DNA from: Pseudomonadota bacterium
GTDB lineage: Bacteria > SZUA-182 > DTGQ01
Direction: 5' to 3'
Length of the DNA: 50,469 bases
Assembly (NCBI GenBank): GCA_030625085.1
Contig: DAOURK010000013.1
Location: 1-50,469 of the forward strand
The notes beneath the pieces were generated by a model. That model did no database searches, was not told the origin of the DNA, and worked only from the letters and a program-made list of their open reading frames with translations. Of this stretch, positions 6,402 to 50,469 are shown piece after piece. Position 1 is the first letter of the stretch, and the number at the start of each line of letters is the position of its first letter. Made by a program: the position numbers and the translations under genes.

Positions 6402-6462
6402 AATTGAGAATTCCGCTTAAACGGTTTTTAGGGATTTATCTTATACATTAGGACGAATAATA

Positions 6463-12225: not shown

Positions 12226-12790
12226 TACGAATTAATAGTTGGTTCGAACCTGCCAATGGTTCATTATTGAGAGGGAAGGTACGATCTTAATGTATGTAGG
12301 TACTTAAGCCCTCCCGGATAAGGTTTGGCAAACTGTCCGGTAGAGTAACATCATATTCAATTGGTGGTATAGAGGTCAGCGAGGTGAAGGGTGTATGGGG
12401 GCCTGAATCTGCCCCTTAGCCCCGAGAAAATTGAATTTTGGGTGCGTGCCGATCCCGGCCCGTCGCGCGGTGTAGGCAACACGGATGACGCGTTAAATGC
12501 GAGTGTTATCCGTCCCCCAGGAGGCTCAGCCAGCATTGAGCTGAACAATGATTATGGAGTAATCAGGCGAGCATAGGAAAGGCCAAAAGGTTCTTGGTGA
12601 AACATCCCAGATCGAGAGGATAGTATCGAGTATGGTTAATCAACGTAATAGAAGATACCAGATGACGCCGATGCGAGGGATGGGAATCGGATATCCGCAG
12701 AGGATTAGCAATGAAGCGGCTAATCATTGCAGAGAAGGACTAAAAATTGTAAAAATAGCGGAGAACCCCAATCCCCCACAATTTTTATAG
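12226..12790 (+). other. Structured non-coding stretch, possibly a group II intron remnant
   Basis: No convincing protein is encoded in any frame across this ~565-bp gap, yet its base composition is more balanced than the other gaps and it is rich in short GNRA-like and purine-rich motifs (GAGGTGAAGGG, GGTGAAACATCCC, CAGATGACGCC). The general look, including a TTAGCCCCGAG segment and a GGTGTAGGCAAC segment, reminds me of domains I-III upstream of group II intron reverse transcriptases. No RT gene and no recognisable domain V (AGCC...GTT hairpin) is seen. It replaces the expected 5' end of the following Rhs gene. Low confidence; covariance-model searching would decide. Confidence 0.3.
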
Positions 12791-12801
12791 GTTGGTGGGA
12801 A

Positions 12802-12824
12802 AAATTGGGGACGGACCCCAATTT
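12802..12824. repeat. 23-bp palindromic GGGGACGG element, copy 1
   Basis: Nine-base arms AAATTGGGG and CCCCAATTT flank ACGGA. The identical 23-bp unit recurs at 21087-21109. Half-copies with the core TTGGGGACGG occur at 18121, 18137, 18517 and 18729. It lies at the broken 5' edge of the Rhs gene. Confidence 0.8.
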
Positions 12825-25638: not shown

Positions 25639-26375
25639 ATAATCTTCTGAGTCCGGCATCGAATTGGCTGGAAATTCCAAAAAGGGGACGGTACATCGTT
25701 CGTTTTGCAGTTTTTCGCCGAGTGCTTCCAACTCATGAGATTATTGATAAGCGCATCACCAATTTTACCCTCCGCTTTGAGCATCTTTAATACCTTGGCT
25801 CGAAAGATCCCTCAAGAGGTTCAAGATTCACTTTGGGCATAACGTAAAAGACCCCTGCTCTTCTAAAAAGCTAAGGAAAATATCTTTGTTTTTGTTTGCT
25901 TCAATGAGCTTGATATTAGCTTGCTGTAATTCTTTTGTCCTTTCTTCCCGCATTATGACGAAGAAGGTAGCCTAAATGCTTTTAATAGCGGTACTATTTA
26001 TAAGATAAGGAATCGGAAACTGTCGAAGAAATACAAGTATAGCGTTGTTTTTATGACGTTTCTATTAGTTGGTTCGCCGTTTTGCTCCGGCTTCCTCCGG
26101 ATAAAACCTCGCAATTTCGCCCTTGCCTTTCGCTAGTTGGTCATATATCATCTAAGAAAGTGGTAATATATTGATCCAAAAGGATTTTTCATCCCTTACT
26201 CATGCCATGCCAGATTTAATCAAGCGCTCCACTCAAAACGGCTTATGCGGTAAGAATAATAGATAAGTCGTAATCAGAATTGGTATCAGTATCATGGAAA
26301 CATTATAGATGTAAAAGAGGAATAGCAAAACATGTTATCCTTTTACGCAAGATCGATCATATTAAAACCTTAGTG
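25639..26375. other. Degraded intergenic region
   Basis: About 735 bp lacking an intact gene. It holds a GGGGACGG core near 25684, a probable transposase scrap (25700-25800, minus) and a 41-codon minus-strand frame (25828-25953, MREERTKELQQANIKLIEAN...) that looks like the helical tail of a lost protein. The stretch before the ABC-3C operon has no clear promoter. Confidence 0.45.
25700..25800 (-). pseudogene. Possible IS91/IS801-type transposase fragment
   Basis: The minus strand reads VLKMLKAEGKIGDALINNLM and SWKHS, which resembles the segment ahead of the C-terminal domain of Y2 transposases of the IS91/IS801 group (xLVxNLLSWRHSGF). Only ~33 residues remain and no ends can be defined. From memory of the family; weak. 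Confidence 0.33.
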
Positions 26376-27281
26376 ATGATGGATGAAATTAAAAGAAGCT
26401 GGTATAAAACAAGGTGTGAAAATCAGTTCCTGAAGTTTAAACGGGAACGATTCCAGGATTGGTTTGCAGATATAATGACAAAAGCATATCCGGGCGATTT
26501 TCAACGAATACGCCCATCACAAGGCGATCAGGGTTGTGATGGATATTGCCTCTCAACGAAAACAGTCTATGCGGTATATGCACCACGACAAATTCCCAAA
26601 AGTGAGCTCGAAAGAAAAATAAAAAGCGATTTTGAAAGGGCCTTAAATGAATTAAAGGAAAAAATGAAAGGATGGTTTTTTGTTCATAATGACCCGGATG
26701 GTTTAGCTTCTACAACAGCAGTAGGTATATTGGGACAAATATCAACAGATCATCCTGAAATCAAGATAAAAACAATGTGTTTTGAAGAAATATGGGCAGT
26801 GGTTGAAACCTTAGATGGAAATCAAATGGTCGAATTATTGGGGTTAGGGCCTGCGCCGGATCTTGAGAGCATGCAGAAAATTCAGATGAAAGAAATTATC
26901 GGCGTGCTAAATTATATAGAAAAGCGAGAAGTCCCTGCCAATGTTCCGGTGGATATTCCCAATCCTGAAAAGTTGGAATATAATCAACTTAATACGGAAG
27001 TAAAAGAATTACTTAAATCCGGAAGACGCAAAGAGAAATTAGTTCAAAACTATGTTGATAGAGTAAGAGCCCCTGATTATGGCGAGCGCTTAGCCCAATC
27101 ATTTAGAGAAAAGTATCGAACTCTAAAGGATAGTGATTTTACTCCAAACGAAATTTTTGATGAATTGAGAAAATTTACAGGTGGTGATTATTTTCAGAAA
27201 GCACCTAAGTTAGCCGCTGTGCTAGCTGTTTTATCTTATTTTTTTGAACGATGTGATATTTTTGAGAATCCACGAGAATAA
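26376..27281 (+). CDS. ABC-3C system effector: predicted restriction-endonuclease-like N-terminus
   Basis: 301 residues from the ATG at 26376; the open frame extends upstream but has no better start. The N-terminal ~70 residues (QFLKFKRERFQDWFADIMTK, AYPGDFQRIRP, GDQGCDGYCLSTKTVYAVYA) match a nuclease-like fold seen at the start of many ABC-3C effectors, with GDxGCDGY as the acidic site. The usual Gln/Lys after it is not evident (VYAVYAP), so catalysis is uncertain. The middle is predicted helical. The C-terminal ~70 residues (SFREKYRTLKD ... ALAVLAVLSYFFERCDIF type) correspond to the domain that pairs with the ABC-3C middle component. Its stop overlaps the next start by 1 nt. Inferred role: the toxic or nucleolytic arm of an antiphage system controlled by the ATPase. 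Confidence 0.72.
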   Translation: MMDEIKRSWYKTRCENQFLKFKRERFQDWFADIMTKAYPGDFQRIRPSQGDQGCDGYCLSTKTVYAVYAPRQIPKSELERKIKSDFERALNELKEKMKGWFFVHNDPDGLASTTAVGILGQISTDHPEIKIKTMCFEEIWAVVETLDGNQMVELLGLGPAPDLESMQKIQMKEIIGVLNYIEKREVPANVPVDIPNPEKLEYNQLNTEVKELLKSGRRKEKLVQNYVDRVRAPDYGERLAQSFREKYRTLKDSDFTPNEIFDELRKFTGGDYFQKAPKLAAVLAVLSYFFERCDIFENPRE

Positions 27282-27526
27282 TGATTTTACCTACTAAACA
27301 TATTAAGCAGGATCGTTCCTTGATTGGGGTTGGTGCAGAAATTCTTCTGCTGTTGGATAATTCCAAAACAATTTCATCATTGTGGAACCGATTTCAAAAA
27401 CGGATAGAATCAATAGAGGGAACTGGTGAAATTTCCTTTGATTGGTTTATTCTATCTTTGGATCTTCTCTATGCACTAGACACAATAGATTATCAGCGCG
27501 GGCGTGTTTGGAGGAATAAACAATGA
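27281..27526 (+). CDS. ABC-3C middle component, small (MC6-like)
   Basis: 81 residues. It starts MILPTKHIKQDRSLIGVGAE and contains LLLLDNSKTISSLWNRF and FDWFILSLDLLYALDTIDY, the pattern of the short ABC-three-component middle proteins (MC6 type) that link effector and ATPase. TAATG and ATGA overlaps join it to the genes on both sides, so the three products should be made in fixed proportion. It has no catalytic motif; it is probably an adaptor with a winged-helix-like fold (IDYQRGRVWR end). Its order, effector-middle-ATPase, is the canonical one. Confidence 0.75.
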   Translation: MILPTKHIKQDRSLIGVGAEILLLLDNSKTISSLWNRFQKRIESIEGTGEISFDWFILSLDLLYALDTIDYQRGRVWRNKQ

Positions 27527-29280
27527 TTCATAGGGTATTTAGCAGCACCCTGTCATCCTTCAAAGAACTTAATTTTCACCAAGGATTAAATGTCTTATTG
27601 TCTGAAAAAAGCACAGGCGCGACAGAAAGACAAACACGCAATGCCGCGGGTAAATCCAGTATGGTAGAGATTGTACATTTCTTATTAGGATCGGATTGTA
27701 ACAAAAAATCTATTTTTCTTTGCCCGGATCTAATAACGCATAGATTTGGTTTAAAGTTTGATTTAACTTCTTCTCAGATAGAGGTTGAACGGGCAGGGCA
27801 AGAACCATCGCGTATAATTATTAATAAAGGGGACACTTCCAGTTGGCCTGTTGCTAGTTCTTTGGATAAAAAAACAGGGGAGATTTTTTTAAGCAATACC
27901 AAATGGAAAGAAATTTTAGGTAAAATAGTTTTTGGAATATCAACAGAATGGCCAAGATTTTCTCCGACTTTTCGTTCACTAATATCTTATTTCGCGCGGC
28001 GGATGGATGTTGGCGGCTTTAAAAATCCTAAACAGCAAAGTGAAAAACAAGCGGAGTGTGATCAACAAGTTGCGATTTCTTTTTTACTGGACATTGATTG
28101 GGATATCCCACGAGAGATCGAAGAAGTCAGGCAAAAAGAGAATTCGCTTAAAATCCTCAAAAGAGAACTGAAATCAGGTGTCCTGGGGAGTGTTATTGGC
28201 ACTGCATCTTCACTCAAAACAAAATTGACTATTGTTGAACGTCGGTTTAAAAAACTGCAACAGGAAATCAATTCCTTTCATGTATTACCGGAATATCGTG
28301 AGTTGGAGCATGAAGCTTCTGAACTGGTGTTGAAAATCAATGATCTATCTAATCAAAATGTGATTGATGAAGAATCAATTCGGGAAATAGAAGAAGCCAT
28401 ATCTTCAGAAAAACCGCCTAAACAAACAGAGGTAAGGAAAATATACAAAGAAGCAGGTATTGTTTTACCTGATATTGCCTTAAAACGCTTAGAGGATGTG
28501 GAGCGATTTCATAGTGCGATTGTCAGTAATCGTCGATCACATTTAAAAGGTGAATTGGATACCCTTAGAAATAAAATTGACAAACGCCGGCGGGAAATGG
28601 AAAAGATAGATCAACGTCGCCGTCAAAATATGGAGATACTCAACACTCATGGAGCTTTGGATCAATCTGTCAAACTTCAGCAAGAACTGAATCGACTTCA
28701 TGTTGAAGTAGAAGAGTTGCGCAGACAACATGAAATCGCCGAAAAAATAGAAACAACCGGCGCAGACTTATCGATTGAAAGAAAGCAACTTTATAAACGT
28801 TTAATTGACGACTACAAAGAACAAGAAGAGCTATTAAAGGAAGCGATCATCACTTTTGAGGACCTTTCAAGTGAATTATCGGAACGTGAAGGGAGTTTAA
28901 CCATAACTCCTACAGAAAGAGGGCCGGAGTTTGATGTGCAAGTCGAAGCGAAAAGAAGCAGAGGGATTACAAATATGCAAATCTTTTGTTTTGATATGAT
29001 GCTTATTGTGTTATGTCAAAAAAGAAAAACTGGCCCGGGTTTTTTAATTCATGACAGCCATTTGTTTGATGGAATGGATTCTCGTCAAGTTGCCAAAGCC
29101 ATAGAGATAGGCGCCAGAACAGCCGAGGAACATAAATTTCAATATATTGTTACCATGAATTCCGACATGGTTCCCTTTGCTGAATTCAGCAAGAATTTTC
29201 GTTTTAATGATTATGTTCTTCCTGTTAAACTCACCGATGCCACAGTGGATGGAGGACTTTTTGGCTTTCGGTTTGACTAG
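27523..29280 (+). CDS. ABC-3C ATPase, DUF2326 SMC/RecN-like
   Basis: 585 residues. The N-terminus (FSSTLSSFKELNFHQGLNVL) leads into a P-loop of the family form RNAAGKSSMVEIVHFLLG, lacking the first glycine as is usual in this group. Residues ~190-440 are long coiled coils (ENSLKILKRELKSG; ELDTLRNKIDKRRREMEKID). The C-terminal ~140 residues are the DUF2326 lobe with IQ-like MQIFCFDMMLIVL, the Walker B-like GFLIHDSHLFDGMDSRQVAK and the following MNSDMVPFAEFS strand. Known for the family: an ABC ATPase that acts as the sensor or motor in three-component defence systems. It is the last gene of the three-gene operon and is intact. The trigger is unknown. Confidence 0.85.
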   Translation: MIHRVFSSTLSSFKELNFHQGLNVLLSEKSTGATERQTRNAAGKSSMVEIVHFLLGSDCNKKSIFLCPDLITHRFGLKFDLTSSQIEVERAGQEPSRIIINKGDTSSWPVASSLDKKTGEIFLSNTKWKEILGKIVFGISTEWPRFSPTFRSLISYFARRMDVGGFKNPKQQSEKQAECDQQVAISFLLDIDWDIPREIEEVRQKENSLKILKRELKSGVLGSVIGTASSLKTKLTIVERRFKKLQQEINSFHVLPEYRELEHEASELVLKINDLSNQNVIDEESIREIEEAISSEKPPKQTEVRKIYKEAGIVLPDIALKRLEDVERFHSAIVSNRRSHLKGELDTLRNKIDKRRREMEKIDQRRRQNMEILNTHGALDQSVKLQQELNRLHVEVEELRRQHEIAEKIETTGADLSIERKQLYKRLIDDYKEQEELLKEAIITFEDLSSELSEREGSLTITPTERGPEFDVQVEAKRSRGITNMQIFCFDMMLIVLCQKRKTGPGFLIHDSHLFDGMDSRQVAKAIEIGARTAEEHKFQYIVTMNSDMVPFAEFSKNFRFNDYVLPVKLTDATVDGGLFGFRFD

Positions 29281-29417: not shown

Positions 29418-29549
29418 TCCCCATCCCTTTTTAGCGAAGCTGTGCCATTAATGGTTAAAGTTGCTGAAGTGGAAAGGAAGATTGAAATGTTGACCGATGA
29501 GATTGAACGGACACGGCGCCGCGTGAATGCCCTGGAATATGTAGTAATC
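29418..29549 (+). pseudogene. Fragment of V-type ATP synthase subunit D
   Basis: The frame reads FSEAVPLMVKVAEVERKIEM followed by LTDEIERTRRRVNALEYVVI, the signature C-terminal segment of V/A-ATPase subunit D, the central coiled-coil rotor stalk (EEIEKTRRRVNALEYVLIP). It is cut off directly after VVI, where sequence of a truncated RhuM gene begins on the opposite strand. The N-terminal ~120 residues and the last helix are missing. It lies ~7.6 kb from the subunit B relic, on the same strand and in operon order. Confidence 0.8.
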
Positions 29550-29555
29550 GAGGCG

Positions 29556-29831
29556 CCGCTGGACCTCCCGCTTTCCCTCTCTGCGAACTGACAAATATTT
29601 TTTGTGAGTTGCCTCAGGGGTAAGCTCGCCTTCTTCGTAAATGCATTGAATATGATGGCTGATGTTCTGCTGAGAGCTTTGGAAAAGATCGGCCATGAGC
29701 TGTTGGGTCAGCCAGACTGTCTCCTCCTCCATCCGCACATCGATTTTGACTTTGCCGTCTTCCGCTTCATAGATGAGAAACTGTCCCTTGCCGGAATTAG
29801 CCCCATTATTGGGCAGAAGTTCTTTACTCAT
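29556..29831 (-). pseudogene. Truncated RhuM-family gene, 5' 92 codons
   Basis: The first ~92 residues match the intact RhuM at 21860-22906 almost exactly (differences only at about seven positions, for example MSKELLPNNGANSG against MSKDLLPDNVANSG). The shared sequence also extends ~16 bp upstream of the start (GAGGAGGCGGTGCAGTC leader). After RRLDYY it runs into the antisense of the ntpD fragment, so the last ~30 residues of the frame (to 29448) are junk. The start codon and ribosome site remain, so a short N-terminal peptide could still be translated. It is in direct orientation with the intact copy. Confidence 0.85.
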
Positions 29832-35542: not shown

Positions 35543-38467
35543 ATGGACACACAGGCTAATGTTTTCGCTCCTGGTGCCAGGGTTCTGGTGCGAGATGCTG
35601 AATGGCTGGTCCGAAGAGTTGATCGCACCTCCACGGGCGGCCAATCACTACTAGTAGTGGGAATATCCGAGCTGGTTAAAGACAAAGAGGCTATCTTCCT
35701 CACTGAGGTTGATAAATCCATTGAGGTGCTTGATCCGGTTAAAACCGCACTGATTCACGATACATCAAGCTCTTATCAGGCTTCGCTGCTCTATATGGAG
35801 AGCATGCTCCGGCAAATGCCGCCGACAGATGAGAACCTGTATATCGGACACAAGGGGGCCATGGATTATGTGCCCTACCAATTAGATCCAGCAATTCAGG
35901 CACTCAAACAACCGCGACAGCGCATCCTTATCGCCGATGCCGTGGGCCTGGGCAAAACAATTGAAGCAGGCATCCTGCTTAGCGAACTGATTCGGCGCGG
36001 CCGGGGGAAACGCATCCTGGTAGTTGCCATCAAGAGCATGTTGACCCAGTTTCAGAAAGAGCTGTGGTGCCGATTTACCATCCCTCTCACACGTCTTGAT
36101 TTAGTGGGCATTCAACGTATTCGCTCACGCATTCCCACCAATCAAAACCCCTTTTACTATTACGATAAGGCCATTATCTCCATTGACACCCTCAAGCAAG
36201 ATGCAGAATACCGCACCTATGTGGAGAATGCCTATTGGGACATCATTGTCATTGACGAGGCACAGAATGTAGCCCAACGAGGCAGCGGCTCCTCCCTTCG
36301 CGCCAAACTGGCCCAACTCCTGGCCCAGCGCTCCGACACGCTTATCATGCTATCAGCCACACCCCACGACGGCCAAGCCCGAAGCTTTGCCAGCCTCATG
36401 AATATGCTGGACCCTACGGCCATTGCCAACCCAGATGACTATGGGCCGGAAGACATTAAGGGCCTTTTTATCCGGCGCTTTAAAAAAGATATCCAGGATC
36501 AGGTTGGCCTGGCTTTTAAGGAAAGAAAGATCAGTATTTCCCATTGCACAGCATCACCTATAGAGGAACAGGCATATACTACCTTTGTCAATACCACCTT
36601 CACCCGGCTTGACCAGCGGCAAGGTGCAGGCGAGCTTTTCAAGACCACCCTTGAAAAAGCCCTTTTCTCAAGCCCGGCGGCCTGCCTTTCAACAATCCAT
36701 AACCGGATTAAACGCTTACAAAAAACAGAAGATCCGGCCTTCGAAAATGACATCCGGCTCCTGGAGGAGTTGGCTAATCAGGTCATGCTCATCCTGCCGG
36801 AACATTTCAGCAAGTACCGAAAACTGCTGAAGATTATACAAGACTCGAAGCATGGCTTTAGCTGGAAAGGTAAGGACCCTCTTGACCGGTTGATTATTTT
36901 TACCGAGCGCATTGAAACCCTGTTATTCCTTAAAAATCATCTTCCCCCTGATCTTGGCCTTAAGGATGAGAAAGCGGCCATTCTTTATGGCAGCATGTCT
37001 GATGTGGATCAACAAAAAATTGTCGAGGATTTCGGCAGGGAGGAAGCCCCTGTGCGCCTTTTGATCGCCTCTGATGTGGCCTCGGAGGGTATTAACCTTC
37101 ATTATCTTTCTCACCGGATGATCCATTTTGACATCCCCTGGTCGCTGATGGTTTTTCAACAGCGTAATGGCCGCATTGACCGCTATGGCCAGGAATGCAC
37201 CCCGCATATACTCTACCTGGTTACCGAAAGCCTGAATGCAAAAATCCGGGGTGATACACGCATCCTTGAACTTCTCATTCAAAAGGATGAGCAGGCAGTG
37301 AAAAATATCGGCGACCCTTCCGCCCTTATGGGGGTCTACGATATCGAGGAAGAGGAGAAGATTACCGCCCGGGCCATCGAGCAGGGCCAAAGCCCTGAGG
37401 CTTTTGAATCAACCCTCAAAGAAAAACAAAAACAGTTACACAAGCGTTTTGGGGCAAAAGAAGCAAAAGATGCGTCTCCCTCATCCGGGAAAGGCGATGA
37501 TTTTGATCCCCTGGCCCTGCTGATGGGCCAGGACAAGCCGCCTGCAGGCGAAAATGCGACCACTGCGGCCAAAACCATATCCTCCCTGTTTAAGGATGAT
37601 TTAGCTTACCTTCATGCTGCTATACAGCACTTTCGACAGACTGAGCATTTGCAGGTGGAGTTTGATCTTCATGCCGGCCGTGTAGAACTGACAGCGCCTG
37701 AAGACCTCAAACACCGGTTCCGGTTTCTCCCCAAAGAAATATGGCCGGATGATGGAGGGTTCATTCTTTCAGCCAACCAGGCAACCATTCAGGAGGAGAT
37801 CAAGCGGAGCCGCAAAGATGAGCAGACCTGGCCATGTGTCCACTATCTGTGGCCCCTCAATCCGGTCATGGAATGGATAAATGATAAAGTCATGGCTGCC
37901 TTTGGCCGACATCAATCACTAGTACTCACCTTGCAAGGTGCAATGAAACCAAATGAGGCGCTATTCATCCTCTCCGGACTTATTCCAAACCGCAAAGGGC
38001 ACCCACTGGTCCATCGCTGGTTTGGCGTCAACTTCACCAATAACCAATTTTCCGGCATTGAAGACTTTGAAGCGCTCCTTGATCGCCTTGGCCTTGGGCG
38101 CCAATCTTTTCCAAACCGGGGTCAAGGCACCGACATCCAAACCTTACAATTGCTGCTCCCTGAAGCAATCAAGCAGGCTAGGCTATGGATGAGTGAACAG
38201 CGCCAGTCCTTTGAGCGCACAATCAATAAAAAACTCAATGATCACCTTAAGGCTTTAGAACTGCTCGAGCATAAACAGTATATCCAGCTTGATTTTCGTT
38301 TTGCAGAAAGCCGCCTTTCCGAAAAAATAATTCTCAGCCGCAAAGAAGCGGAAAAAAGAAAAATCAAGAAAATCTTCGATGATTACCTTGATTGGGTTCA
38401 AGAGACCATGTCCACCGAGGACAAGCCCTACATTCAGGTCATTGCCGTATTGAGAGGGGCTGACTGA
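35543..38467 (+). CDS. SNF2-type helicase, DrmD-like
   Basis: 974 residues. The N-terminus (FAPGARVLVRDAEWLVRRVD) is a small beta-rich domain, as at the start of DISARM DrmD and RapA-like proteins. Helicase motifs: I, IADAVGLGKTIEAG (~129-142); II, VIDEAQNV (~236-243); III, MLSATPHDGQ (~269-278). The C-terminal RecA lobe has LIIFTER, LIASDVASEGINLHYLSHRM and the arginine-finger motif QQRNGRIDRYGQ. The rest is a long helical tail. Known of the family: dsDNA translocases without strand separation. The stop overlaps the methylase ATG by 1 nt (TGATG), so the two are coupled. Inference: the translocase of a methylation-linked defence system. DrmD is the best match; a generic SNF2 restriction helicase is the alternative. 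Confidence 0.85.
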   Translation: MDTQANVFAPGARVLVRDAEWLVRRVDRTSTGGQSLLVVGISELVKDKEAIFLTEVDKSIEVLDPVKTALIHDTSSSYQASLLYMESMLRQMPPTDENLYIGHKGAMDYVPYQLDPAIQALKQPRQRILIADAVGLGKTIEAGILLSELIRRGRGKRILVVAIKSMLTQFQKELWCRFTIPLTRLDLVGIQRIRSRIPTNQNPFYYYDKAIISIDTLKQDAEYRTYVENAYWDIIVIDEAQNVAQRGSGSSLRAKLAQLLAQRSDTLIMLSATPHDGQARSFASLMNMLDPTAIANPDDYGPEDIKGLFIRRFKKDIQDQVGLAFKERKISISHCTASPIEEQAYTTFVNTTFTRLDQRQGAGELFKTTLEKALFSSPAACLSTIHNRIKRLQKTEDPAFENDIRLLEELANQVMLILPEHFSKYRKLLKIIQDSKHGFSWKGKDPLDRLIIFTERIETLLFLKNHLPPDLGLKDEKAAILYGSMSDVDQQKIVEDFGREEAPVRLLIASDVASEGINLHYLSHRMIHFDIPWSLMVFQQRNGRIDRYGQECTPHILYLVTESLNAKIRGDTRILELLIQKDEQAVKNIGDPSALMGVYDIEEEEKITARAIEQGQSPEAFESTLKEKQKQLHKRFGAKEAKDASPSSGKGDDFDPLALLMGQDKPPAGENATTAAKTISSLFKDDLAYLHAAIQHFRQTEHLQVEFDLHAGRVELTAPEDLKHRFRFLPKEIWPDDGGFILSANQATIQEEIKRSRKDEQTWPCVHYLWPLNPVMEWINDKVMAAFGRHQSLVLTLQGAMKPNEALFILSGLIPNRKGHPLVHRWFGVNFTNNQFSGIEDFEALLDRLGLGRQSFPNRGQGTDIQTLQLLLPEAIKQARLWMSEQRQSFERTINKKLNDHLKALELLEHKQYIQLDFRFAESRLSEKIILSRKEAEKRKIKKIFDDYLDWVQETMSTEDKPYIQVIAVLRGAD

Positions 38468-41400
38468 TGGCCATTGATCTTACCGGAATTACCAATGAAA
38501 ATGAATTTTACACCCACCACTACCTGAGCGCTATCCTTGAGAATGACCTCAAGGATGTTTACAAAGAATGGAAGCGCCGGGAAGAGGAAGAGAACATCAG
38601 CCCGCCTTATGCTGAATTGCGCAGTTTGGCCAAAGATTACTTTGCCGTGCGCAATCGCCTGGAGCGAGAGCGCCGGCCGGAGGCCCGGCTGCTTAGGCAA
38701 AGAGAGTTTCTGGCCACCTTACTGCCTGTCCTGGGCTATGTCTTCAAGCCTGAATTAAGAGAATTGGACGATAACACACTCTTGCCTATAATCGGTGAGG
38801 TAACAAAGCCAAACGGCGCACCTGAACTATGGATCATTGAAGCCTTGGACCTTTCAGGCGAAAACTCAGATCCCTTAGAGCTTACCTTGTGCTCCTGTCA
38901 ATTCACCGATGCGGAGGAAGACAATAAAACCTTACCCGAGACATCCCTTTCGGATATTATCACCCGCCAGGTTTTCGGGCGTACTGAGCCGCCGCGCTGG
39001 GTGATCCTGTCCAGTGACGCCCAACTGATATTAATCGACCGCAGCAAGTGGAATGAAAAGCGTCTTCTTCGTTTTGATCTTACCGAAATTCTCAATCGCC
39101 GGGAGGTTTCAACCCTCCAGGCCACAGCCACCCTCTTACACCGCCAAAGTATCTGCCCTGAAGAAGGCTTGAGCTTATTGGATACACTGGATGAGAACTC
39201 CCACAAACACGCCTTTGCTGTTTCCGAAGATTTAAAATATGCGCTCCGCGAAGCCATTGAGCTGCTGGGCAACGAGGCTGTCTGGTACTTGCGTGAGAAA
39301 ATACACGAGAAGGTTTTCGGCCGTGATCTTGCCCGGCAATTAACCAGAGAATGCCTACGCTATATGTACAGGCTGCTGTTTCTCTTTTACATTGAAGCGC
39401 GGCCCGAACTTGACTATGTGCCCATGAAGTCCGATGCCTTTCGCCTGGGATACAGCCTTGAGTCTCTGCGTGATCTTGAGCTGGTCAAACTTACCACTGA
39501 GGAATCTAAAACCGGCACCTTCATGCATGAGTCATTGCAGCTTTTATTTGAAATGATCTATAACGGCTTTCCCCTGGAACAGGCCAGCAACTGGCCATTG
39601 ACAATAATCCGGAGCACCATATCTTTTGGGTGCCTCCCCTTCGCTCTCACTTATTTGATCCTGCACGCACGCCTATTCTTAATCGTGTTACGTTTCGCAA
39701 TCAAGTATTACATCGCGTGATCAATCTTATGTCTCTCTCCCGCCCTAAAAACCGAAGAGAACGACGTGGCCGCATTTCCTATGCTCAGCTTGGCATTAAC
39801 CAGCTTGGCGCTGTCTATGAGGCACTGCTCTCTTACCAGGGATTTTTTGCCGAGGCAGACCTCTACGAAGTAAAGAAGGCCGGTGAGTCTTATAATGAAC
39901 TGGAGACCGCCTATTTTGTGAAAGCCGATGCCCTGGAACAATACACAGAAGAAGAAAAAATTTACCACGATGACGGCACCCTGAGAAAGTATCCGAAAGG
40001 CACTTTCATCTATCGCCTGGCCGGGCGCGACCGGGAAAAATCCGCTTCCTATTACACCCCGGAAGTGCTCACCCGCTGCCTGGTCAAATATGCCTTAAAG
40101 GAACTGTTAAAGGATAAAACCGCGGACGACATTTTGCAGCTTACTATCTGCGAACCGGCTATGGGTAGCGCCGCCTTTTTGAATGAGGCCATTAACCAGC
40201 TTGCTGAAGCCTACCTCAGTCTCAAACAAAAGGAACTTGGCCGGACCATATCCCATGAAGACTATACGCGCGAAAGACAAAAAGTAAAAATGTACCTGGC
40301 CGACAATAATGTCTTTGGGGTGGACCTTAACCCTGTGGCTGTAGAGTTGGCCGAAGTATCTTTATGGCTCAACACCATTCACAAAGGCGCTTTTGTTCCC
40401 TGGTTCGGTATGCAACTGGTCACCGGCAACTCCCTGATTGGCGCCAGACGGCAGGTATTCGCCTCTCATCTTTTGAGTCGATCATCCAGATCAGCCCCCC
40501 TATGGCTGGATGAAGCCCCGCAAAGAGTAATGCCGGGGAACGAAAGACCGAAGCATACTATCTATCATTTCCTCCTGCCTGATAGAGGCATGGCGGATTA
40601 TAAGGATAAAGTGGTCCGTCAGATGGCGGAAACAGAAATCAAAAAAATCAAAGAGTGGCGAAAGGATTTTATCAAGCCCTTTACTGAAGGTGAAATAAAA
40701 CGATTAGAAGCCTTATCTGTTGCTGTTGATCGCCTGTGGGAACGACATATTGAACAGCAGCGCATCATCCGTGCACGCACCAGTGACCCTGTTCAGGTTT
40801 TTGGGCAACCCCGGCCTGAAGGGAAACGAAAGCTCACTTCCACTGAATGGAAAGACCGGGTATTCTACCAGGAGATGCTTTCAAAAGATATACACAACTC
40901 CAGTCTCTACCGCCGCCTGAAGCTGGTTATGGATTACTGGTGTGCACTCTGGTTTTGGCCTATTGAAAAAGCGAATTTGCTGCCGTCGAGGGAAGAATTT
41001 TTTCTGGAATTATCTCTCATTTTGGAGGGCAATGTCTTTGACAGGGTGTATGCCCATAAGGAACAAATGGGCTTGTTCCCGGATACACGGCCAAAGCAAT
41101 TGACTTTGAAATTAGTAGATGAATTTGGGCATGTTGATGCAGACCGGCTCTGTCGGGAAAGTGCACGCTTGGGATTGGTAAACGAGCTTGCCGAAAAGTA
41201 CAGGTTCTTGCATTGGGAGCTACAATTTGCCGATATTTTTACTGATCGGGGCGGCTTTGATCTTGTGCTGGGGAATCCTCCGTGGATTAAGGTAGAATGG
41301 AATGAAGGCGGAGTAATGGGTGATGCAGAGCCGCTGTATGTTTTGCGAAAATATAGCGCTTCAAGGCTGGCGCAGATGCGGGAAAAGGTAATCGAGCACT

Positions 41401-43190
41401 TCAATTTGCGTGGCAATTACTTCTCCAATTACCAAGAATTCGAAGCAACCCAAAATTTTCTCAATGCCTATCAGAACTATCCTCCATTGAGAGGTGTCCA
41501 GACGAACCTGTATAAATGCTTCTTGCCTCAGGCATGGATGATTGGTTTATCAAAAGGAGCAGCGGCCTTCTTGCACCCTGAAGGTATTTATGATGACCCT
41601 AATGGTGGTGCATTTCGAGAAGCACTTTACCCAAGGCTCCGTGGGCACTTCCAATTTCATAATGAATTAAAGCTATTTGCCGAAGTACATCACGTCACAA
41701 ATTTTAGCATTAACATTTACTATAACACCTCGGCTGATCCTTTAAGGTTTATTCACCTTGCCAATCTTTACTCGCCTCATACTGTGGATGCCTGTTTCAA
41801 TCATAACGGCCGAGGTCCGGTGCCTGGTATCAAAGACAATGAAAATAAATGGAACCTGCACGGGCACTCTGACCGGCTTATTCAAATCGGAAAAAATGAA
41901 TTGGCCTTGTTTGCCAGGCTTTATGATGCAACCGATACACCTCCGCTTCAAGCGCGATTGCCTGCCCTTCATTCAGTGCAACTTATTCATGTATTAAATA
42001 AATTCGCTGCCTATCCAAAGCAGCTTGGCGATCTTCATGAGGAATATGTCTCCACTGAAATGTGGCATGAAACAAACACTCAGAAAGATGGGACCATTCG
42101 CCGCAAGACCTATTTCCCAAATAGTATAGAAGAATGGGTGCTTTCCGGGCCGCATTTTTTTGTGGGTAATCCCTTTAATAAGACACCCCGCCATAAGTGT
42201 ACCTTAAACTCAGATTATGATGTTCTTGACTTAACAATCTTACCCGATGACTACCTCCCACGCACTAACTATGTCCCTTCCTGTGATCTTACAGAATACT
42301 TTCGTCGCACACCAAAGGTTCCTTGGGGAGAAAAAAAATCAGTGGTAAAATTTTACCGGGTTATTAACCGGGAAATGATAGGGCAATCTGCAGAACGAAC
42401 ATTTATACCTGTAATTATACCAAAAGGTATAGGGCATATAAATACCTGCCTGGCAACCTGCTTTCATGATACAATCGATTTACTTAACTATTATTGTTTA
42501 GCGATCTCTTTGCCAATTGATTTCCGGGTTAAAACCACCGGAATGGGACATGCCAATAAATCATTAATTAATAAACTACCGATAATATCTAAAAAAAGTA
42601 TATTCGGCACCGCCCTACATTGTCGTACTTTGCTATCGGTCTGCCTCACTACCCACTACGCCGAACTTTGGGCTGAAGGCTGGAACAATGTCTTTGTCCA
42701 GGATCGTTGGGCCAAAGATGATCCACGACTCAATAATAATAAATTTAAAAATCTCACTTCCAAATGGCACCGCAATTGTGACCTCCGCACTGACTTCGAA
42801 CGACGTCAAGCACTTGTCGAAATCGACGTACTTGCTGCCATGTCCCTCTCTCTCACTCTTGACGAGCTTAAAACTAACTATCGTATACAATTCCCCATCC
42901 TCACCCAATACGAGTCTAATACCTGGTATGATCAAAACGGCCGTATTGTTTTCACTATCAATAGGGGTCTTACCGGCGTCGGCTTTTCCCGGCCCGAATG
43001 GAATAAAATCAAAGATATAAAAAGCGGCACTGTGGAGCGTAAAATCATAGACGACACACTTCCCGGCGGCCCTCGTGAGCGCACTATCATATATGATGCC
43101 CCCTTCGATCGCTGTAACCGAGAACAAGATTATGAGATTGTCTGGGCTGAATTTAAGCGCCGCTTTAAAAATAGACAGGACGTTGCATGA
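38467..43190 (+). CDS. Large class I N6-adenine DNA methyltransferase (Eco57I/DrmMI-like), frameshifted near 39588
   Basis: Reads as one gene of ~1574 residues if a single-base loss near 39588 is repaired: frame 1 carries the family sequence to GFPLEQAS, frame 3 continues with QLAIDNNPEHHIFWVPPLRS and HLFDPARTPILNRV. The first ~370 residues are a specificity or helicase-contact region. Methyltransferase motif I is CEPAMGSAAF (~561), followed by FGVDLNPVAVELAEVSLWLN; motif IV is the adenine-specific NPPW (~936, VLGNPPWIKVEW). The ~600 residues after NPPW are probably target recognition. The size and the partner helicase resemble DISARM class 1 DrmMI and BREX PglX. Known role: host DNA marking. 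Whether the shift is real, programmed or an assembly error cannot be told here; if real, the catalytic part could still restart internally (for example at 39729). Confidence 0.82.
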
Positions 43191-43258: not shown

Positions 43259-44884
43259 ATGAAATCTTCTTCTACAATTTCGTTAAAGACTGTTAAAAAA
43301 ATGTTTAAACCCTTTCCTTTAGACATTGTATTATTGGCGCTTAATCGGGCCTATCGAAAATGGTTGCAAGGAGATAATTCTTATAATCTACATATCTTAA
43401 AGGAATGCGAACAAGGAAATCCACTCTTTTATTGGATTGTTGCTGAAACTGCACGACATGCAATCGCATGGTGTTTGAAAAGAAGATATAACAGCCCTAT
43501 TCAGTTGAATTATGGAAAAGCCATTACTCAGCAGCAGATTGAACAACTTATGGATGTGGCAATGGCCGTCCAACTTAATTTGCCTGTACGTTCTTCGGAA
43601 GCTATGTCTCATTTAACATCGGATCCTTTTCTTGATACTGGATGTCGCTTATGGCTGCCTCAATATCTCTTACAGCGAAGTTCTCAATACCGGATTGGTC
43701 AAACCATTCTTCTTTACAAAAAAGCATCAGAAAGAAGGCAGCAGCGAGACCATCGTTTCCCATTATCAGAGTATAATTCTATCCTCTCATCAGTTCTTGG
43801 TTGCCCTCTCGATTTTTTCCTATTATCCTGTTTACAACTACAAGGAATATCTTTGAGTAACAATCCTTGTATTACTTTTCAACGGGCAATTCCTATAGAT
43901 GACAGGAAATATGACAATAGTATCTATGATTCGCATTCTTCAGGAGTTATCACTCCTTCTATAACACCTGTCATTAAATTATTAAGTGCTTCACCACATG
44001 AAATTCTTGAGAAGGCTCAACAACAGCTCGGGAGAAATGATGAATTTGTTATGATTGATGCACCGAACCCTCTCTTGTCATATCCTTTAATACAACCATT
44101 TTCGGATCGTCCTGATTACCTCATTGCTCCTGTCCCTCATTTGCTGGCCGAATGGCTATATGAACCCTTTATCGATAAGTTGTTCTCAAAATGCAATGGC
44201 ATCTTTACGAACAAGCATCTTTCGGAAATTTTTGAAGAATATGTTGGGCTTTTAGCTGAGCTATGTTCTCCAGATCATCAACCTTGGATTCATGAAAGCG
44301 ATCTTCAGAAAGGTTACTCCAATTCAGTTGTTGATTGGGTCAAAGATCTTGACGATATGGTGATATTGATTGATGCAAAACGCACCTTTATGGAAAATGT
44401 AAAGAGATACAGAAGCTTACCGGATGATTGGGAAGACCCTGTTGACTATTTGGTGAAAGGAGTTCATCAAGCGGCAACCTTTTGGAATAATGTCAAGAAA
44501 GGCAAAGTCCCGGCGCTCTTAAAGTCAAGAAACAAACCGGCTATTGCAGTTATTGTAACCCATATGGATTCTGATTATCGAGCATTACACAGCCACACGA
44601 AAAAAGCCATCGATACAAGGTGGAAAGATATTAATGCTCCTCTTCCCATCCCATGGCTCATTCTCGCCATAGATCGTTATGAGCAAATCATGACCCAATG
44701 GTCACAAATCAATGATGCTAAATGGCTGGGTAACATACTTTGGAAAGCCGCAAAAGCAGAAAATCCCAAACAAATACTTGATGAAATTCCAGTCATTCAA
44801 GAAGGCCCCCTGTGTGCTGAAGAGGAAGCTTTAGTAACCAAATTTAAAAAAGAAGTTGAGCAACAAAAAATAAGTAAAAAGTAA
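43259..44884 (+). CDS. 541-residue uncharacterised island protein with possible PD-(D/E)XK core
   Basis: I do not recognise a named family. The ATG has AGGA ~11 nt upstream and follows the methylase stop by 68 nt. The N-terminal ~130 residues are helical (PLDIVLLALNRAYRKWLQGD). The C-terminal ~220 residues contain a candidate restriction-endonuclease-like site: an acidic stretch VVDWVKDLDDMVILIDAKRT (~355-375), where Asp, a hydrophobic beta-strand and D-A-K mimic the PD-(D/E)XK pattern, followed by a helix and the strand AIAVIVTHMDSDYRA. It ends in a lysine-rich tail. Its position between a methyltransferase and an SMC-like ATPase suggests it supplies the nuclease of the system. That role is inference. 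Codon use is AT-richer than in the two genes before it. Confidence 0.6.
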   Translation: MKSSSTISLKTVKKMFKPFPLDIVLLALNRAYRKWLQGDNSYNLHILKECEQGNPLFYWIVAETARHAIAWCLKRRYNSPIQLNYGKAITQQQIEQLMDVAMAVQLNLPVRSSEAMSHLTSDPFLDTGCRLWLPQYLLQRSSQYRIGQTILLYKKASERRQQRDHRFPLSEYNSILSSVLGCPLDFFLLSCLQLQGISLSNNPCITFQRAIPIDDRKYDNSIYDSHSSGVITPSITPVIKLLSASPHEILEKAQQQLGRNDEFVMIDAPNPLLSYPLIQPFSDRPDYLIAPVPHLLAEWLYEPFIDKLFSKCNGIFTNKHLSEIFEEYVGLLAELCSPDHQPWIHESDLQKGYSNSVVDWVKDLDDMVILIDAKRTFMENVKRYRSLPDDWEDPVDYLVKGVHQAATFWNNVKKGKVPALLKSRNKPAIAVIVTHMDSDYRALHSHTKKAIDTRWKDINAPLPIPWLILAIDRYEQIMTQWSQINDAKWLGNILWKAAKAENPKQILDEIPVIQEGPLCAEEEALVTKFKKEVEQQKISKK

Positions 44885-44946: not shown

Positions 44947-47571
44947 ATGAGCATTTCTTCATTGGATCAAATAATCAAATGGTCCTCCACACTCCCGACA
45001 TGGCAAAGTGAAGCAGTGCGCCGGTTACTACTTAAAATTGATTTGGGCCAGGATGATGAAAAAGAGTTACTTCTTATGCTGAAATCTGATTTTGGGTTAG
45101 CAGATGCTGCCCAAGTGCCTAAGGCGAAGATTTTAGATGGAAAGCAGTTCTCCAGCACCCGCTCATCTGATCTGCCAGTCTTAATAAAGAAAATGAAGGG
45201 TCTCCAGGGGGTCAATGCCTTACCACATGATTCGATCTTAAATTTTGCACCTAAGGGGTTAACCATCGTATATGGAGACAATGGTGCAGGCAAATCCGGA
45301 TATGCACGTGTTCTTAAGCGGGCTTGTCGAGCGCGAGATTCATCGGAGCCGATATTATCAAATGTATTTGATGATACCAGTCCGGGGCCTGCGCAAGCAC
45401 TATTCGCGATAACAGTAAACGGAAAGATCGATAAGGAAATCACCTGGATTGATGAACAAGATGAGAATGAAATCCTTTCATCAATCTGTGTTTTCGACGC
45501 TGGGTGTGCGCGTATAATAGTAGACCAGAAAAATCAGGCCCATTACTTACCCTATGGCGCTCATGTTTTTGAGGGGCTTGCTAATCTCATCCAACACATG
45601 CGTGAATGTCTTGAACAGGAAAAACCAAAGCCAGAGAAACCTGTTCTGGAGGGCCTTGATCCCACCACTAAAGCAGGCATATTCCTCATTTCAATCAATA
45701 GATCAACAAATCCTCAAGATATACAAGACAATACGAAGTGGAAGGAAGAGGATCAGAAACGACTTGACGAATTGACAAAGGAAATAGCAAATGCAGAAGC
45801 TAATGATCCACTAAAGCAGGCAGGCCAATTTGAAAGATGTAGTGAAAAGCTTAAATCAATAGCGCGGCAAATGCTAGGGCTGAGGGCATTTTTAAGTTCT
45901 GCGGTTTATGGGGAGATACAACATATCCTTTATGCATTGAAGGAAGCTGAGAAAGCACTAAAAATAGCCTCTAATCTCACATTGTCAAATGAGCCGTTGC
46001 CGGGCGCCGGGTCCAATGCCTGGCAAATGTTATATAATACAGCTAAAAAATTTTCTATGGAACATGCCTATCCCAACGAAAAATTTCCTCACCTCGATAA
46101 TAATACGAAATGTGTCCTGTGTATGCAACCATTGGGGGCAGAGGCAAAAGAGAGGTTCAGTCGATTTAAAGCCTTTATGGAGGACACAACAAAACAAAAA
46201 GTAGAGGGTATACAGGAAACCTTAGCACGAAAAAAAGAAGAAATTGAAAAACTTCAATTTCCTGACAATGGCCTTTTAAAAGAACGTCTGCAAGATATAG
46301 CCGAAATTGATGATAAACTCCCCAATAAGGTGTGTGACTATTTTAATTCCCTTAGAACAAGACAACAACATTTTTTACAAGTCATTACAGAACGGAAATC
46401 TTTTGAGACACCTGCGTTATTAAATTGCCCAAAGCGGGAACTGCAAAGCATTGACAAGATCTTGAAATCTAATATTCAAAAACTTCAAAAGAGCGCAAAA
46501 CCAGAGGAACTTAAAAAATTAAAGAATGAGAAACTGGAATTACAAGCCAAAAAATTAATCTCAACACAGACTTCTAAGCTGAAGGAATATGTTGATCAAT
46601 TACGCCTGGCTCACTTGTATGAAATGTGTATTAAAAAATTGAATCCCAGAAAGATTACTATGGCGGGGAAGGAAATCATTTCTAAAACGCTATCGCCCCA
46701 ATTGGAGAAAGCATTGGCAGATGAATTGCGTTTTCTTGGCGCATCCAGCTTCCCAATTTGCTTCAGGATATCAGGAAGACATGGTTCAACTGAACACCAA
46801 TTCCACCTTGAAGGTGCAAACATAAAAAAGGGATGTTTTCTTTCTCAGATCCTGAGCGAAGGAGAACAAAAAATTATTGCCTTGGCAGGTTTCCTGGCGG
46901 AGCTCCAAACCTCAAGCATGAAAAACCCGATTATCTTCGATGATCCGGTATGCTCACTTGATCATAAATTTCGTCGGGCAATTGCCAAGAGGTTGGCTAA
47001 GGAGGGCAAAGAAAGGCAGGTTATTTTATTCACCCATGATCTGCCATTTGTTTTAATGCTGAATGAGTATTGTGATGAAAGTGGTTGCGAGTGGACAATA
47101 AATTCAATAGAAAGAACAGCCAAGACACCGGGAATATGTACCAAGCACCCTCCTTGGTATGCACTTAATCTGAAAGCGCGTGTAGGCATATTAAGAGATG
47201 AATTACAGGTGATTCGTAAAACTCATACATCCGCCATTGAGAGCGAATATAAGGCTAAGGTTAGATCCTTTTATGGGAAACTGCGTGAAACGTGGGAGAG
47301 GCTTGTCGAGGAGCTCCTTTTAAACGGGGTAATACACCGGTTCGGCAGGGATGTACAGACACAGCGCATCAAACCGCTTTCTGATATATCAGATGCAGAT
47401 GTCAAACGAGTTTTCAAGGCTATGAAGATATGTAGCTGTTATATACATGACGAGGCCGCGGAATTGAATGAGCCATTGCCGACACCAGAGGTCATTGAGC
47501 TGGATATTAAAAATTTGGAAGAATACCGGCTTGAGCTTTCATCTAAAAGAAAAAGGAGTCCTAGAAAATGA
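44947..47571 (+). CDS. SMC/RecF-like AAA ATPase with coiled coils (defence ATPase)
   Basis: 874 residues; AGGAG lies 5 nt before the ATG. After an N-terminal ~95-residue helical head comes the ATPase: GLTIVYGDNGAGKSGYARVL (Walker A ~110-117), coiled-coil arms (~260-580) with a zinc-hook-like CVLCMQPL in the middle (KCVLCMQPLG), the ABC signature ILSEGEQKII (~635) and Walker B with D-loop IIFDDPVCSLDH (~660-670), then ILFTHDLPFVL. A CxxC within the coiled coil is a feature of RloC/Rad50-like proteins. The C-terminal ~130 residues (YGKLRETWERLVEELLLNGV ... KICSCYIHDE) are an unfamiliar helical domain; K/RxxxxxH in KICSCYIH hints at a HEPN-type site, unproven. Likely senses DNA ends or phage processes and activates an effector. 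Confidence 0.8.
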   Translation: MSISSLDQIIKWSSTLPTWQSEAVRRLLLKIDLGQDDEKELLLMLKSDFGLADAAQVPKAKILDGKQFSSTRSSDLPVLIKKMKGLQGVNALPHDSILNFAPKGLTIVYGDNGAGKSGYARVLKRACRARDSSEPILSNVFDDTSPGPAQALFAITVNGKIDKEITWIDEQDENEILSSICVFDAGCARIIVDQKNQAHYLPYGAHVFEGLANLIQHMRECLEQEKPKPEKPVLEGLDPTTKAGIFLISINRSTNPQDIQDNTKWKEEDQKRLDELTKEIANAEANDPLKQAGQFERCSEKLKSIARQMLGLRAFLSSAVYGEIQHILYALKEAEKALKIASNLTLSNEPLPGAGSNAWQMLYNTAKKFSMEHAYPNEKFPHLDNNTKCVLCMQPLGAEAKERFSRFKAFMEDTTKQKVEGIQETLARKKEEIEKLQFPDNGLLKERLQDIAEIDDKLPNKVCDYFNSLRTRQQHFLQVITERKSFETPALLNCPKRELQSIDKILKSNIQKLQKSAKPEELKKLKNEKLELQAKKLISTQTSKLKEYVDQLRLAHLYEMCIKKLNPRKITMAGKEIISKTLSPQLEKALADELRFLGASSFPICFRISGRHGSTEHQFHLEGANIKKGCFLSQILSEGEQKIIALAGFLAELQTSSMKNPIIFDDPVCSLDHKFRRAIAKRLAKEGKERQVILFTHDLPFVLMLNEYCDESGCEWTINSIERTAKTPGICTKHPPWYALNLKARVGILRDELQVIRKTHTSAIESEYKAKVRSFYGKLRETWERLVEELLLNGVIHRFGRDVQTQRIKPLSDISDADVKRVFKAMKICSCYIHDEAAELNEPLPTPEVIELDIKNLEEYRLELSSKRKRSPRK

Positions 47572-47670: not shown

Positions 47671-48066
47671 ATGATGGAAAAAGAGAAGTTAATATCCTAT
47701 TGGATTAATAGTTCTGATATAGATTTCAAAGCAATGCAGCATTTATATGAAAAAAAGGATTTCAGTTGGTCTTTGTTTATTGGCCATCTTGTAGTTGAAA
47801 AACTCATAAAGGCTTATTATGTAAAATATATTGATAAACAACCACCATTTGTTCATAATTTACTTAGATTGGCAGAAAAGGCAAAATTAAAATTAAGTGA
47901 AGAACAGAAAGATTTTCTGGATATGGTATCAACCTTCAATATTCGAGCAAGATATGATGATTATAATCTAGAATTTTATAAAATATGTTCAAAGGAATTC
48001 ACTAAAGAATGGATAAACAAAATTACAGGGTTTAGAGAATGGATCAAAAAACAGCTTTTCAAATAG
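47671..48066 (+). CDS. HEPN domain protein of a HEPN/MNT pair
   Basis: 131 residues, helical. SYWINSSDIDFKAMQHLYEK, WSLFIGHLVVEKLIKAYYVK and PFVHNLLRLAEKA follow the HEPN (PF05168-type) pattern. The usual RNase motif Rx4-6H is not evident; RARYDDY takes the place of the RYP/RYPD end found in nucleotidyltransferase-linked HEPN proteins. GAGGA lies upstream of tandem ATG codons, and a small GACAAG/CTTGTC hairpin (47641-47655) is in the leader. Its 3' end overlaps the nucleotidyltransferase gene by 28 nt. Known of such pairs: toxin-antitoxin modules in which MNT adenylylates HEPN. Without the catalytic motif, toxicity is uncertain. Confidence 0.85.
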   Translation: MMEKEKLISYWINSSDIDFKAMQHLYEKKDFSWSLFIGHLVVEKLIKAYYVKYIDKQPPFVHNLLRLAEKAKLKLSEEQKDFLDMVSTFNIRARYDDYNLEFYKICSKEFTKEWINKITGFREWIKKQLFK

Positions 48067-48347
48067 TAAAAAAATATATTAAGTTCTTAAAAGAAAATAA
48101 ATATAATATTCAAAAAGCCTATATCTTTGGCTCGTTCGCTACAGGAAAATTCAATGAAGATAGCGATATTGATTTAGCGATAATCTTCAAAAATTTAAAG
48201 AATGGCTTTACCACGCAAGTTGACTTAATGAAATTACGCAGAAAATTTGATACCAGGATTGAACCGCACCCGTTTGATGAAGTGGACTTTAATATTTCTA
48301 ATCCTTTTGCTAAAAAAATTCTTAGCACAGGAATACAAATTTTATAA
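48039..48347 (+). CDS. MNT-type nucleotidyltransferase (HEPN partner)
   Basis: 102 residues with the minimal nucleotidyltransferase signature GSFATGKFNEDSDIDLAIIF (GSx10DxD, metal-binding Asp pair), then FDTRIEPHPFDEVDFNISNP where the third acidic residue of the triad sits. Family role: AMP transfer onto the HEPN partner, which silences it. The start lies inside the HEPN gene, so translation is coupled. Complete and without damage. Confidence 0.9.
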   Translation: MDQKTAFQIVKKYIKFLKENKYNIQKAYIFGSFATGKFNEDSDIDLAIIFKNLKNGFTTQVDLMKLRRKFDTRIEPHPFDEVDFNISNPFAKKILSTGIQIL

Positions 48348-48762: not shown

Positions 48763-49674
48763 ATGGATAAAGATCAAATTTATAAAGTTTTAATTCAGAA
48801 CTTTTTCAAGGAATTTATGGAGTTATTTCTCCCTTACCTGGCTGAGAGAATTGATTATTCTTCGGCTGAGTTTCTCATGCAGGAGATGTTTACCGATTTA
48901 CCCAAGGGTAAACGTAAGAAGCTTGATCTTGTGGTGAAGATTAAGTTTCTGGGAGAAGATGAAGAGAAGATTATTATTATTCACATTGAAGTGGAAGGAA
49001 AAAAACAACAGGGTATTGCGCGGCGGATGTTCAAATACTTTGCCCAGCTATATCTTCGCTTTGAAAAAGATATCATACCGATAGTTATCTTTGTGGATGA
49101 TCATAAATGGAAAGAGGATGTGGATCGTGAATATCTGATATCTTATGATGAACAGTACCTCAACTTTAGATACAAAAAAATAAAGTTAAAAGATTTGAAT
49201 TATAAACAATTTTTAAATTCGAAAAGCCCCTTGGCTCATGCTCTAATGGTAAAGATGGATTTCGATAAAAAAGAACGGGTAAGGCTGAAGGCTGAAGTAT
49301 TACGGCTGATTCTAACCGGCCAAATTGATGAAGCTAGGCAAAGTATTCTATTAAATTTTGTAGAAGAATGTATGGTTTTAAAATTATTCGAGGAACAGAC
49401 TTTCAAAAAATTAATAGATGAAAAAGAAGATTATAAGGAGATTAAGCACATGGTAACCATATACGAAGAAAAAGGTATACAAAAAGGTATTCAACAAGGA
49501 GCAGTCCATCTACTTATACAGCAAATAATTCAAAAATTTGGCCCTATTTCTGAAGAGATAGAAAAAAAGATCAAATCAATAAATAAGTTGGACGAGCTTG
49601 ATGAATTAGGTATTGCCCTGCTTGATATAAAGAGCCTTGAAGAGTTTGTAGCCAAATTAGATAAAATAAAATAG
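48763..49674 (+). CDS. Rpn-like PD-(D/E)XK nuclease with DUF4351-type C-terminus
   Basis: 303 residues. The N-terminal ~170 follow the Rpn/transposase-like nuclease family: FFKEFMELFLPYLAERIDYS, then KLDLVVKIKFLGEDEEKIII and IHIEVEGKKQQGIARRMFKY, where the Asp and the ExE strand form the expected PD-(D/E)XK-type metal site and QxxxxxRMFxYxxxLY is the following helix. The C-terminal ~60 residues (GAVHLLIQQIIQKFGPISEE ... LDELDELGIALLDIKSLEEF) match DUF4351. Known of the family: recombination-promoting DNases or domesticated transposase-like proteins, often multicopy. The gene appears intact; the role here is unknown. Confidence 0.85.
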   Translation: MDKDQIYKVLIQNFFKEFMELFLPYLAERIDYSSAEFLMQEMFTDLPKGKRKKLDLVVKIKFLGEDEEKIIIIHIEVEGKKQQGIARRMFKYFAQLYLRFEKDIIPIVIFVDDHKWKEDVDREYLISYDEQYLNFRYKKIKLKDLNYKQFLNSKSPLAHALMVKMDFDKKERVRLKAEVLRLILTGQIDEARQSILLNFVEECMVLKLFEEQTFKKLIDEKEDYKEIKHMVTIYEEKGIQKGIQQGAVHLLIQQIIQKFGPISEEIEKKIKSINKLDELDELGIALLDIKSLEEFVAKLDKIK

Positions 49675-50029: not shown

Positions 50030-50344
50030 ATGATCCCCTCAGTGTTAGCCAAACAAATGCGCCAGGGCGTGGAAAATTTCCTGCGCACCACCTTCCCCAT
50101 TTCCACCCCCTTTTTTCATGGGCTGATCGACCGCCTGCTGGAAGAAGACGGCAGTGTCTTCAAGGGGCCATATGTATCCATACAACTCCCCTTTCGGCAT
50201 GGCCAAAGCGGCCCCGATTTTTTTCCGGATATCCCTTTGAAATACAAGCCCTATCTTCACCAGAAAAAAGCCTTTCAGCGATTGTCCGGACCTCGGGCAC
50301 GCTCAACTATTATCGCCACCAGCACTGGTTCCAAAACTCAGTAA
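50030..50344 (+). pseudogene. N-terminal stub of a DUF1998-type DEAD-box helicase, broken at Walker A
   Basis: 104 residues. VENFLRTTFPISTPFFHGLI, FKGPYVSIQLPFRHGQSGPD and FFPDIPLKYKPYLHQKKAFQ followed by RLSGPRARSTIIATSTGSKT correspond to the start of large DEAD/DEAH helicases that end in DUF1998 (normally IIATGTGSGKTE). One glycine of the P-loop is missing (TGSKT for TGSGKT), and a TAA follows two codons later; the remaining ~125 bp to the window edge show no helicase similarity. A start-proximal piece cannot be active. Such helicases accompany SNF2-methylase systems and Druantia, so it may be a lost part of the defence island upstream. Confidence 0.75.
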
Positions 50345-50469
50345 ATTAGGCTTTTTGAGCTAATATCAATCGCAAATAATTTGCTCGTTTCCATAAAATT
50401 AAATTTTTATGATCTTGTTATCAAAATCTGATATCGTCAGTTACTTTTGATAATAAAGAGAAAATCGTC

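Follow-up and report, generated by a model that had tools for sequence, protein, structure and literature searches.

A probable GapS1-type nuclease of divergent sequence at the armB-armC junction in an ARMADA operon

The window (the whole stretch of DNA that was analysed, 50,469 nucleotides) contains at positions 43259–44884 of the plus strand an unannotated open reading frame of 541 codons, which translates without a stop; the strand opposite has many stops and no rival frame. The question raised by this locus is what the encoded protein is, and whether it serves the genes on either side of it. A preliminary description had proposed that the C-terminal half follows the spacing of a PD-(D/E)XK nuclease core, and that the protein is the missing nuclease of the island and possibly a new family. 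The probable answer is a divergent GapS1-type protein, with a helical N-terminal region and a BspD6I/FokI-type PD-(D/E)XK nuclease, which is carried by an ARMADA operon, between its armB and armC genes, as self-contained cargo. The computed basis is homology to GapS1, a conserved D-X12-[DE]-X-K motif plus a glutamine, and an endonuclease fold. The features of the protein are:

43259–44884, plus strand: GapS1-family protein, 541 aa, open reading frame intact (NF047931, E = 1.1e-16, residues 177–484)
43259–44155, plus strand: N-terminal region, residues 1–299, mainly helical (pLDDT about 25–50 over most of it), with an NPLLSYP segment that includes P276
44156–44818, plus strand: predicted C-terminal PD-(D/E)XK nuclease domain, residues 300–520 (AlphaFold2, Foldseek, VIA-align)
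44234–44236, plus strand: E326, glutamate of the first helix (FE[ER]YVG), in 15/19 homologues
44333–44380, plus strand: D-X12-D-X-K, putative metal-binding/catalytic motif, D359 to K374 (D359, D372, K374; D and K in 19/19, acid at 372 in 19/19)
44468–44470, plus strand: Q404, glutamine in the post-motif helix (392–413), invariant in 19/19

The match to NCBIfam NF047931 (antiphage GapS1) extends over model positions 132–427 of 455, i.e. most of the model, and in a scan of its own genome this is the sole such gene. The score of 60.8 bits lies well below the curated cut-off of 320 bits. A tblastn search of plasmids yielded five distant relatives (Kovacikia, Nostoc, two Pseudomonas plasmids and Streptomyces). 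A profile built from these plasmid relatives (A1) was used to scan cyanobacteria and the phylum of Pseudomonas, with matches in 10 of 386 cyanobacterial genomes and 8 of 398 genomes of the latter. The resulting alignment (A2) has 19 rows with a mean pairwise identity of 23%. NF047931 matches all 19 aligned homologues, the 541-aa protein included, and two are above the curated cut-off, L039 (541 bits) and L040 (359 bits); intermediates in this one alignment link the 541-aa protein to GapS1. These matches contradict the suggestion of a new family. In the tree the protein forms a separate long branch outside the well-supported canonical GapS1 clade. By sequence comparison it is a divergent relative in the wider GapS1 family and not GapS1 proper, and with this long branch and a score of 61 against 320 bits its function could have shifted from that of GapS1. 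What is new is the divergent member; the GapS1 anti-phage family is already known, and a conference abstract describes K. pneumoniae GAPS1 as guarding against phages (PMC12908700).

Other searches gave little. Pfam and PADLOC models show no match to the 541-aa protein, and a sequence search of solved structures gave chance matches only. With the protein by itself as query, scans of genome and viral contigs yielded no relative, viral scans with the relatives as queries yielded no usable match, and no relative was detected in the phage collection. Nine genomes of its own phylum display no GapS1-like relative besides the protein itself. Single homologues have weak sequence matches to the PD-(D/E)XK families DUF234, HSDR_N and Hjc.

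The homologues are mostly solitary, on plasmids, and adjoin integrases or unrelated genes. On the conjugative Pseudomonas plasmid pJ20133-VIM, a GapS1-like gene is found near an integrase gene (L003, positions 11326–12819), and near-identical copies are present in two other Pseudomonas records (L007 and L020). In a cyanobacterium (L045, positions 5268–9991), a ZorD/DpdE-like SNF2 helicase is followed after 57 bases by a GapS1-like gene; helicase and GapS1-like gene together are a possible two-gene variant.

The genes that surround the 541-aa reading frame in the window are:

35543–38467, plus strand: ArmA-like BrxHII/RapA-type helicase (DrmD, E = 8.7e-96; BrxHII, 8.3e-65; 52% identity to the gene in the ArmA position of Aulosira)
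38467–43190, plus strand: ArmB-like PglX-type methyltransferase in two open reading frames (38467–39720 and 39630–43190), both halves matching PDLC03614 consecutively, about 56% identity to Aulosira ArmB
44947–47571, plus strand: AAA_13/PDC-S06 ATPase (PDC-S06, E = 8.8e-230); relatives alone beside BREX or R-M genes
47671–48347, plus strand: HEPN gene paired with an MNT nucleotidyltransferase, after the ATPase and before the ArmC stub (Pfam HEPN, 1.1e-19; Polbeta, 4.8e-17), likely a toxin-antitoxin module
50030–50344, plus strand: N-terminal stub of an ArmC-like YprA helicase (50% identity to residues 1–106 of Aulosira ArmC)
50330–50469, no strand assigned: terminal part of a repeated element, lying at the contig edge and cutting the ArmC-like gene; the genome has eight near-identical copies of the element, several of them at contig ends; probably the end of an insertion sequence

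The same cargo stretch includes a DUF4351 protein (Rpn/transposase-like) at 48763–49674.

The nearest downstream gene is the ATPase, and the two could form a two-gene system with the ATPase as the sensor and the nuclease doing the cutting, in the manner of Gabija or PARIS. The two reading frames, GapS1-like and ATPase, share a strand, lie 62 bases apart and are both intact, and ATPase-nuclease pairs are common in defence. This pairing is nevertheless unlikely, because neighbourhoods elsewhere do not share both genes. No PDC-S06-type ATPase was found near any other GapS1-like gene in the neighbourhoods examined. Three of the closest plasmid relatives of the ATPase are solitary, with BREX, an integrase and an R-M system as neighbours, and no GapS1-like gene is annotated beside those three. 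In addition, PADLOC lists the PDC-S06 ATPase as a single-gene candidate. It is probably a separate candidate defence gene. The nuclease of the ATPase was rejected as the main reading on this neighbourhood evidence, from GapS1-like loci and loci with relatives of the ATPase.

From an alignment input of four rows only, AlphaFold2 gave for the whole protein a poor N-terminal half and a confident C-terminal half, and for residues 300–520 alone a pLDDT of 77.6 and a pTM of 0.80. The order of elements in residues 300–520 is helix, short strand, strand, strand, helix, strand, helix, strand, with helices at 318–336 and 392–413 and strands at about 344–345, 360–363, 368–373 and 428–434. The model displays an alpha-beta-beta-beta-alpha-beta core, whose second and third strands carry the motif: D359 is just before strand 360–363, D372 closes strand 368–372, and Q404 is within helix 392–413. 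The top Foldseek match of this region is the nickase Nt.BspD6I (probability 0.99, E = 0.012; none of the Foldseek E-values reach 0.001). VIA-align gives a Z of 12.7 over 178 residues with Nt.BspD6I (rmsd 3.9), followed by R.BspD6I2 (Z = 11.5), FokI (9.4), HindIII (8.2) and McrC (8.1); the lower rows are mostly restriction enzymes or defence nucleases (Can2, Avs3/4, Shedu, Hachiman HamA). Against the viral structure library, no match was significant. In the predicted model, residues 300–520 have a restriction-endonuclease fold of the BspD6I/FokI type; a restriction-endonuclease fold was what the preliminary description had named as support for its call, although a common fold is no proof of activity.

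The motif itself lies in VVDWVKDLDDMVILIDAKRT, residues 357–376, where the codons of D359, D372 and K374 start at 44333, 44372 and 44378. The spacing D-X12-D-X-K is as the preliminary description had it, and it is conserved beyond chance in the homologues. A PD-(D/E)XK active site predicts an invariant aspartate and lysine, an acid two positions before the lysine and a downstream glutamine, and A2 matches this. The preliminary description had singled out the aspartate and the lysine beforehand, and its PD-(D/E)XK call withstands both of the checks it set, fold and conservation. Across its 317 gap-free columns only M1, P276, D359, K374 and Q404 are invariant in the 19 rows, D and K thus being retained in all of them at 23% mean identity. 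Position 372 is acidic in every row (E in 14, D in 5), Y328 is kept in 18/19 and E326 in 15/19.

The fold could be present with the domain inactive, having a structural or DNA-binding role, since inactivated PD-(D/E)XK domains are frequent among defence proteins and position 372 is D and not the commoner E. This is considered quite improbable. The motif of FokI is D-T-K (D-X-K), and D at 372 is therefore no defect; the best structural matches are active nucleases; and the invariance of D, K and Q across very diverged relatives implies selection on the active site. D359, D372 and K374 would bind Mg2+ and cut DNA.

The flanks bear on the proposal that the protein supplies a nuclease missing from the island. 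ARMADA is a disARM-related defence system, ArmA–ArmD, in which the YprA-like helicase ArmC has a C-terminal Vsr domain, predicted to be the active nuclease (PMC12458937). Because ArmC carries this domain, ARMADA is not short of a nuclease (PMC12458937). Plasmid loci with a 50–56% identical ArmB have the gene order ArmA-ArmB-ArmC-ArmD. A survey of plasmid loci and cyanobacterial genomes gave 13 loci with a readable armB-armC junction. Eight show a direct join or a short gap (L008, L010, L011, L012, L013, L016, L099, L101); at the other five, L009, L015, L096, L097 and L100, genes of other kinds are inserted. A GmrSD-type gene, a DpdF/GajB-like fusion, and an SNF2 helicase accompanied by a dynamin-like GTPase are examples. 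Several of the inserts at these five junctions are defence-like, and the junction looks like a recurrent insertion site. A GapS1-like gene is present at none of the 13 other readable junctions, and therefore the 541-aa gene is taken as cargo and not as an ARMADA component. No ArmA or ArmB was found near GapS1-like genes elsewhere in the neighbourhoods examined, and no GapS1-like neighbourhood has the same ATPase or methyltransferase. The idea of a missing island nuclease is thus not supported, and as the main reading it was rejected on the evidence of the armB-armC junctions and the GapS1-like neighbourhoods.

The state of the host operon can also be compared with that of its cargo. The preliminary description had placed the gene between a methyltransferase and an ATPase; these are indeed its neighbours, but the methyltransferase is two open reading frames of one broken gene. 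The lesion lies at 39570–39590: relative to the sister genome G003, the window has about ten bases fewer near 39570–39585, and the resulting frameshift splits ArmB. G003 reads through this lesion (the window has 86% identity to G003 in ArmA and 88% in ArmB), and the ARMADA locus of G003 runs off its contig. The ArmC-like gene breaks off in its Walker A region, about 104 residues in, at the start of the repeated element; as the source is a draft assembly, this lesion at a contig edge is to be taken as provisional. The remainder of ArmC has no good match in its own genome. The ArmB and ArmC-like genes are broken, whereas the reading frames of the GapS1-like gene and the ATPase are whole.

A lineage-specific ARMADA nuclease subunit serving the methyltransferase or the helicase would accord with the position of the gene inside the operon, on the same strand and 68 bases after armB, but is highly improbable, the gene being missing from the 13 other readable armB-armC junctions and intact in a broken host operon, published ARMADA having its Vsr nuclease in ArmC (PMC12458937), and GapS1-like genes occurring elsewhere without ArmA and ArmB.

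For the GapS1-type cargo protein, the following mode of action may be proposed. The C-terminal domain would carry out metal-dependent DNA cleavage via D359, D372 and K374. The N-terminal part may sense infection or a DNA feature, and then restrain and release, or aim, the nuclease. By analogy with characterised GapS1, a single polypeptide would probably be enough for defence, and on that account the gene is regarded as self-contained cargo. It would have landed between armB and armC as cargo and not as a subunit. Adjacent genes might nevertheless act together with it (compare the cyanobacterial relative behind its helicase).

These observations assign to the GapS1 family a 541-aa protein that had no annotation, and name D359, D372, K374 and Q404 as the residues expected to be needed for activity, so that the mechanism of a poorly described family becomes directly testable. 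They also suggest that defence genes can ride inside another defence operon, which matters when function is assigned by operon membership. A wider picture is put forward tentatively: the armB-armC junction may be a site at which unrelated defence genes insert recurrently, the GapS1-like gene among them, GapS1 proteins may be FokI/BspD6I-like nucleases of a deep lineage, spread by plasmids and able to work alone, and the 541-aa copy may be outliving the decay of its host operon.

Elsewhere in the window, positions 26280–29280 display an ABC-three-component-like pair, a CTD10 protein and a PDC-M68B ATPase (E = 6.9e-155), which is a candidate defence system. A PDC-S05 protein is found twice, at 21860–22906 and at 29448–29831, the second truncated after about 97 near-identical residues. 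An open reading frame of 1920 aa at 6463–12225 has no Pfam match.

With respect to known systems, the closest likeness is to GapS1 (NF047931), which is also one protein of similar length, with the profile match over residues 177–484. The members above the cut-off (L039 and L040) share D-X12-[DE]-X-K and the glutamine with the 541-aa protein, and the motif of L039, VVDFLVTEEDDMLLIDAK, is very similar to VVDWVKDLDDMVILIDAK in the 541-aa protein. The differences are a score of 61 bits against 320, a long branch of its own, an identity of about 15–20%, and a location inside an ARMADA operon. The cleavage domains of Nt.BspD6I, R.BspD6I2 and FokI have in common with predicted residues 300–520 their fold, and the D-X-K is as in FokI; identity is 7–16%, however, and the likeness comes from the predicted fold and not from sequence. 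Also unlike these enzymes, the N-terminal part of the 541-aa protein is not known as a site-specific DNA-recognition domain. As to ARMADA, the flanks at 35543–43190 and the stub at 50030 correspond to ArmA, to ArmB and to the beginning of ArmC; the published system has no GapS1-like component, and its nuclease is the Vsr domain at the C-terminus of ArmC (PMC12458937).
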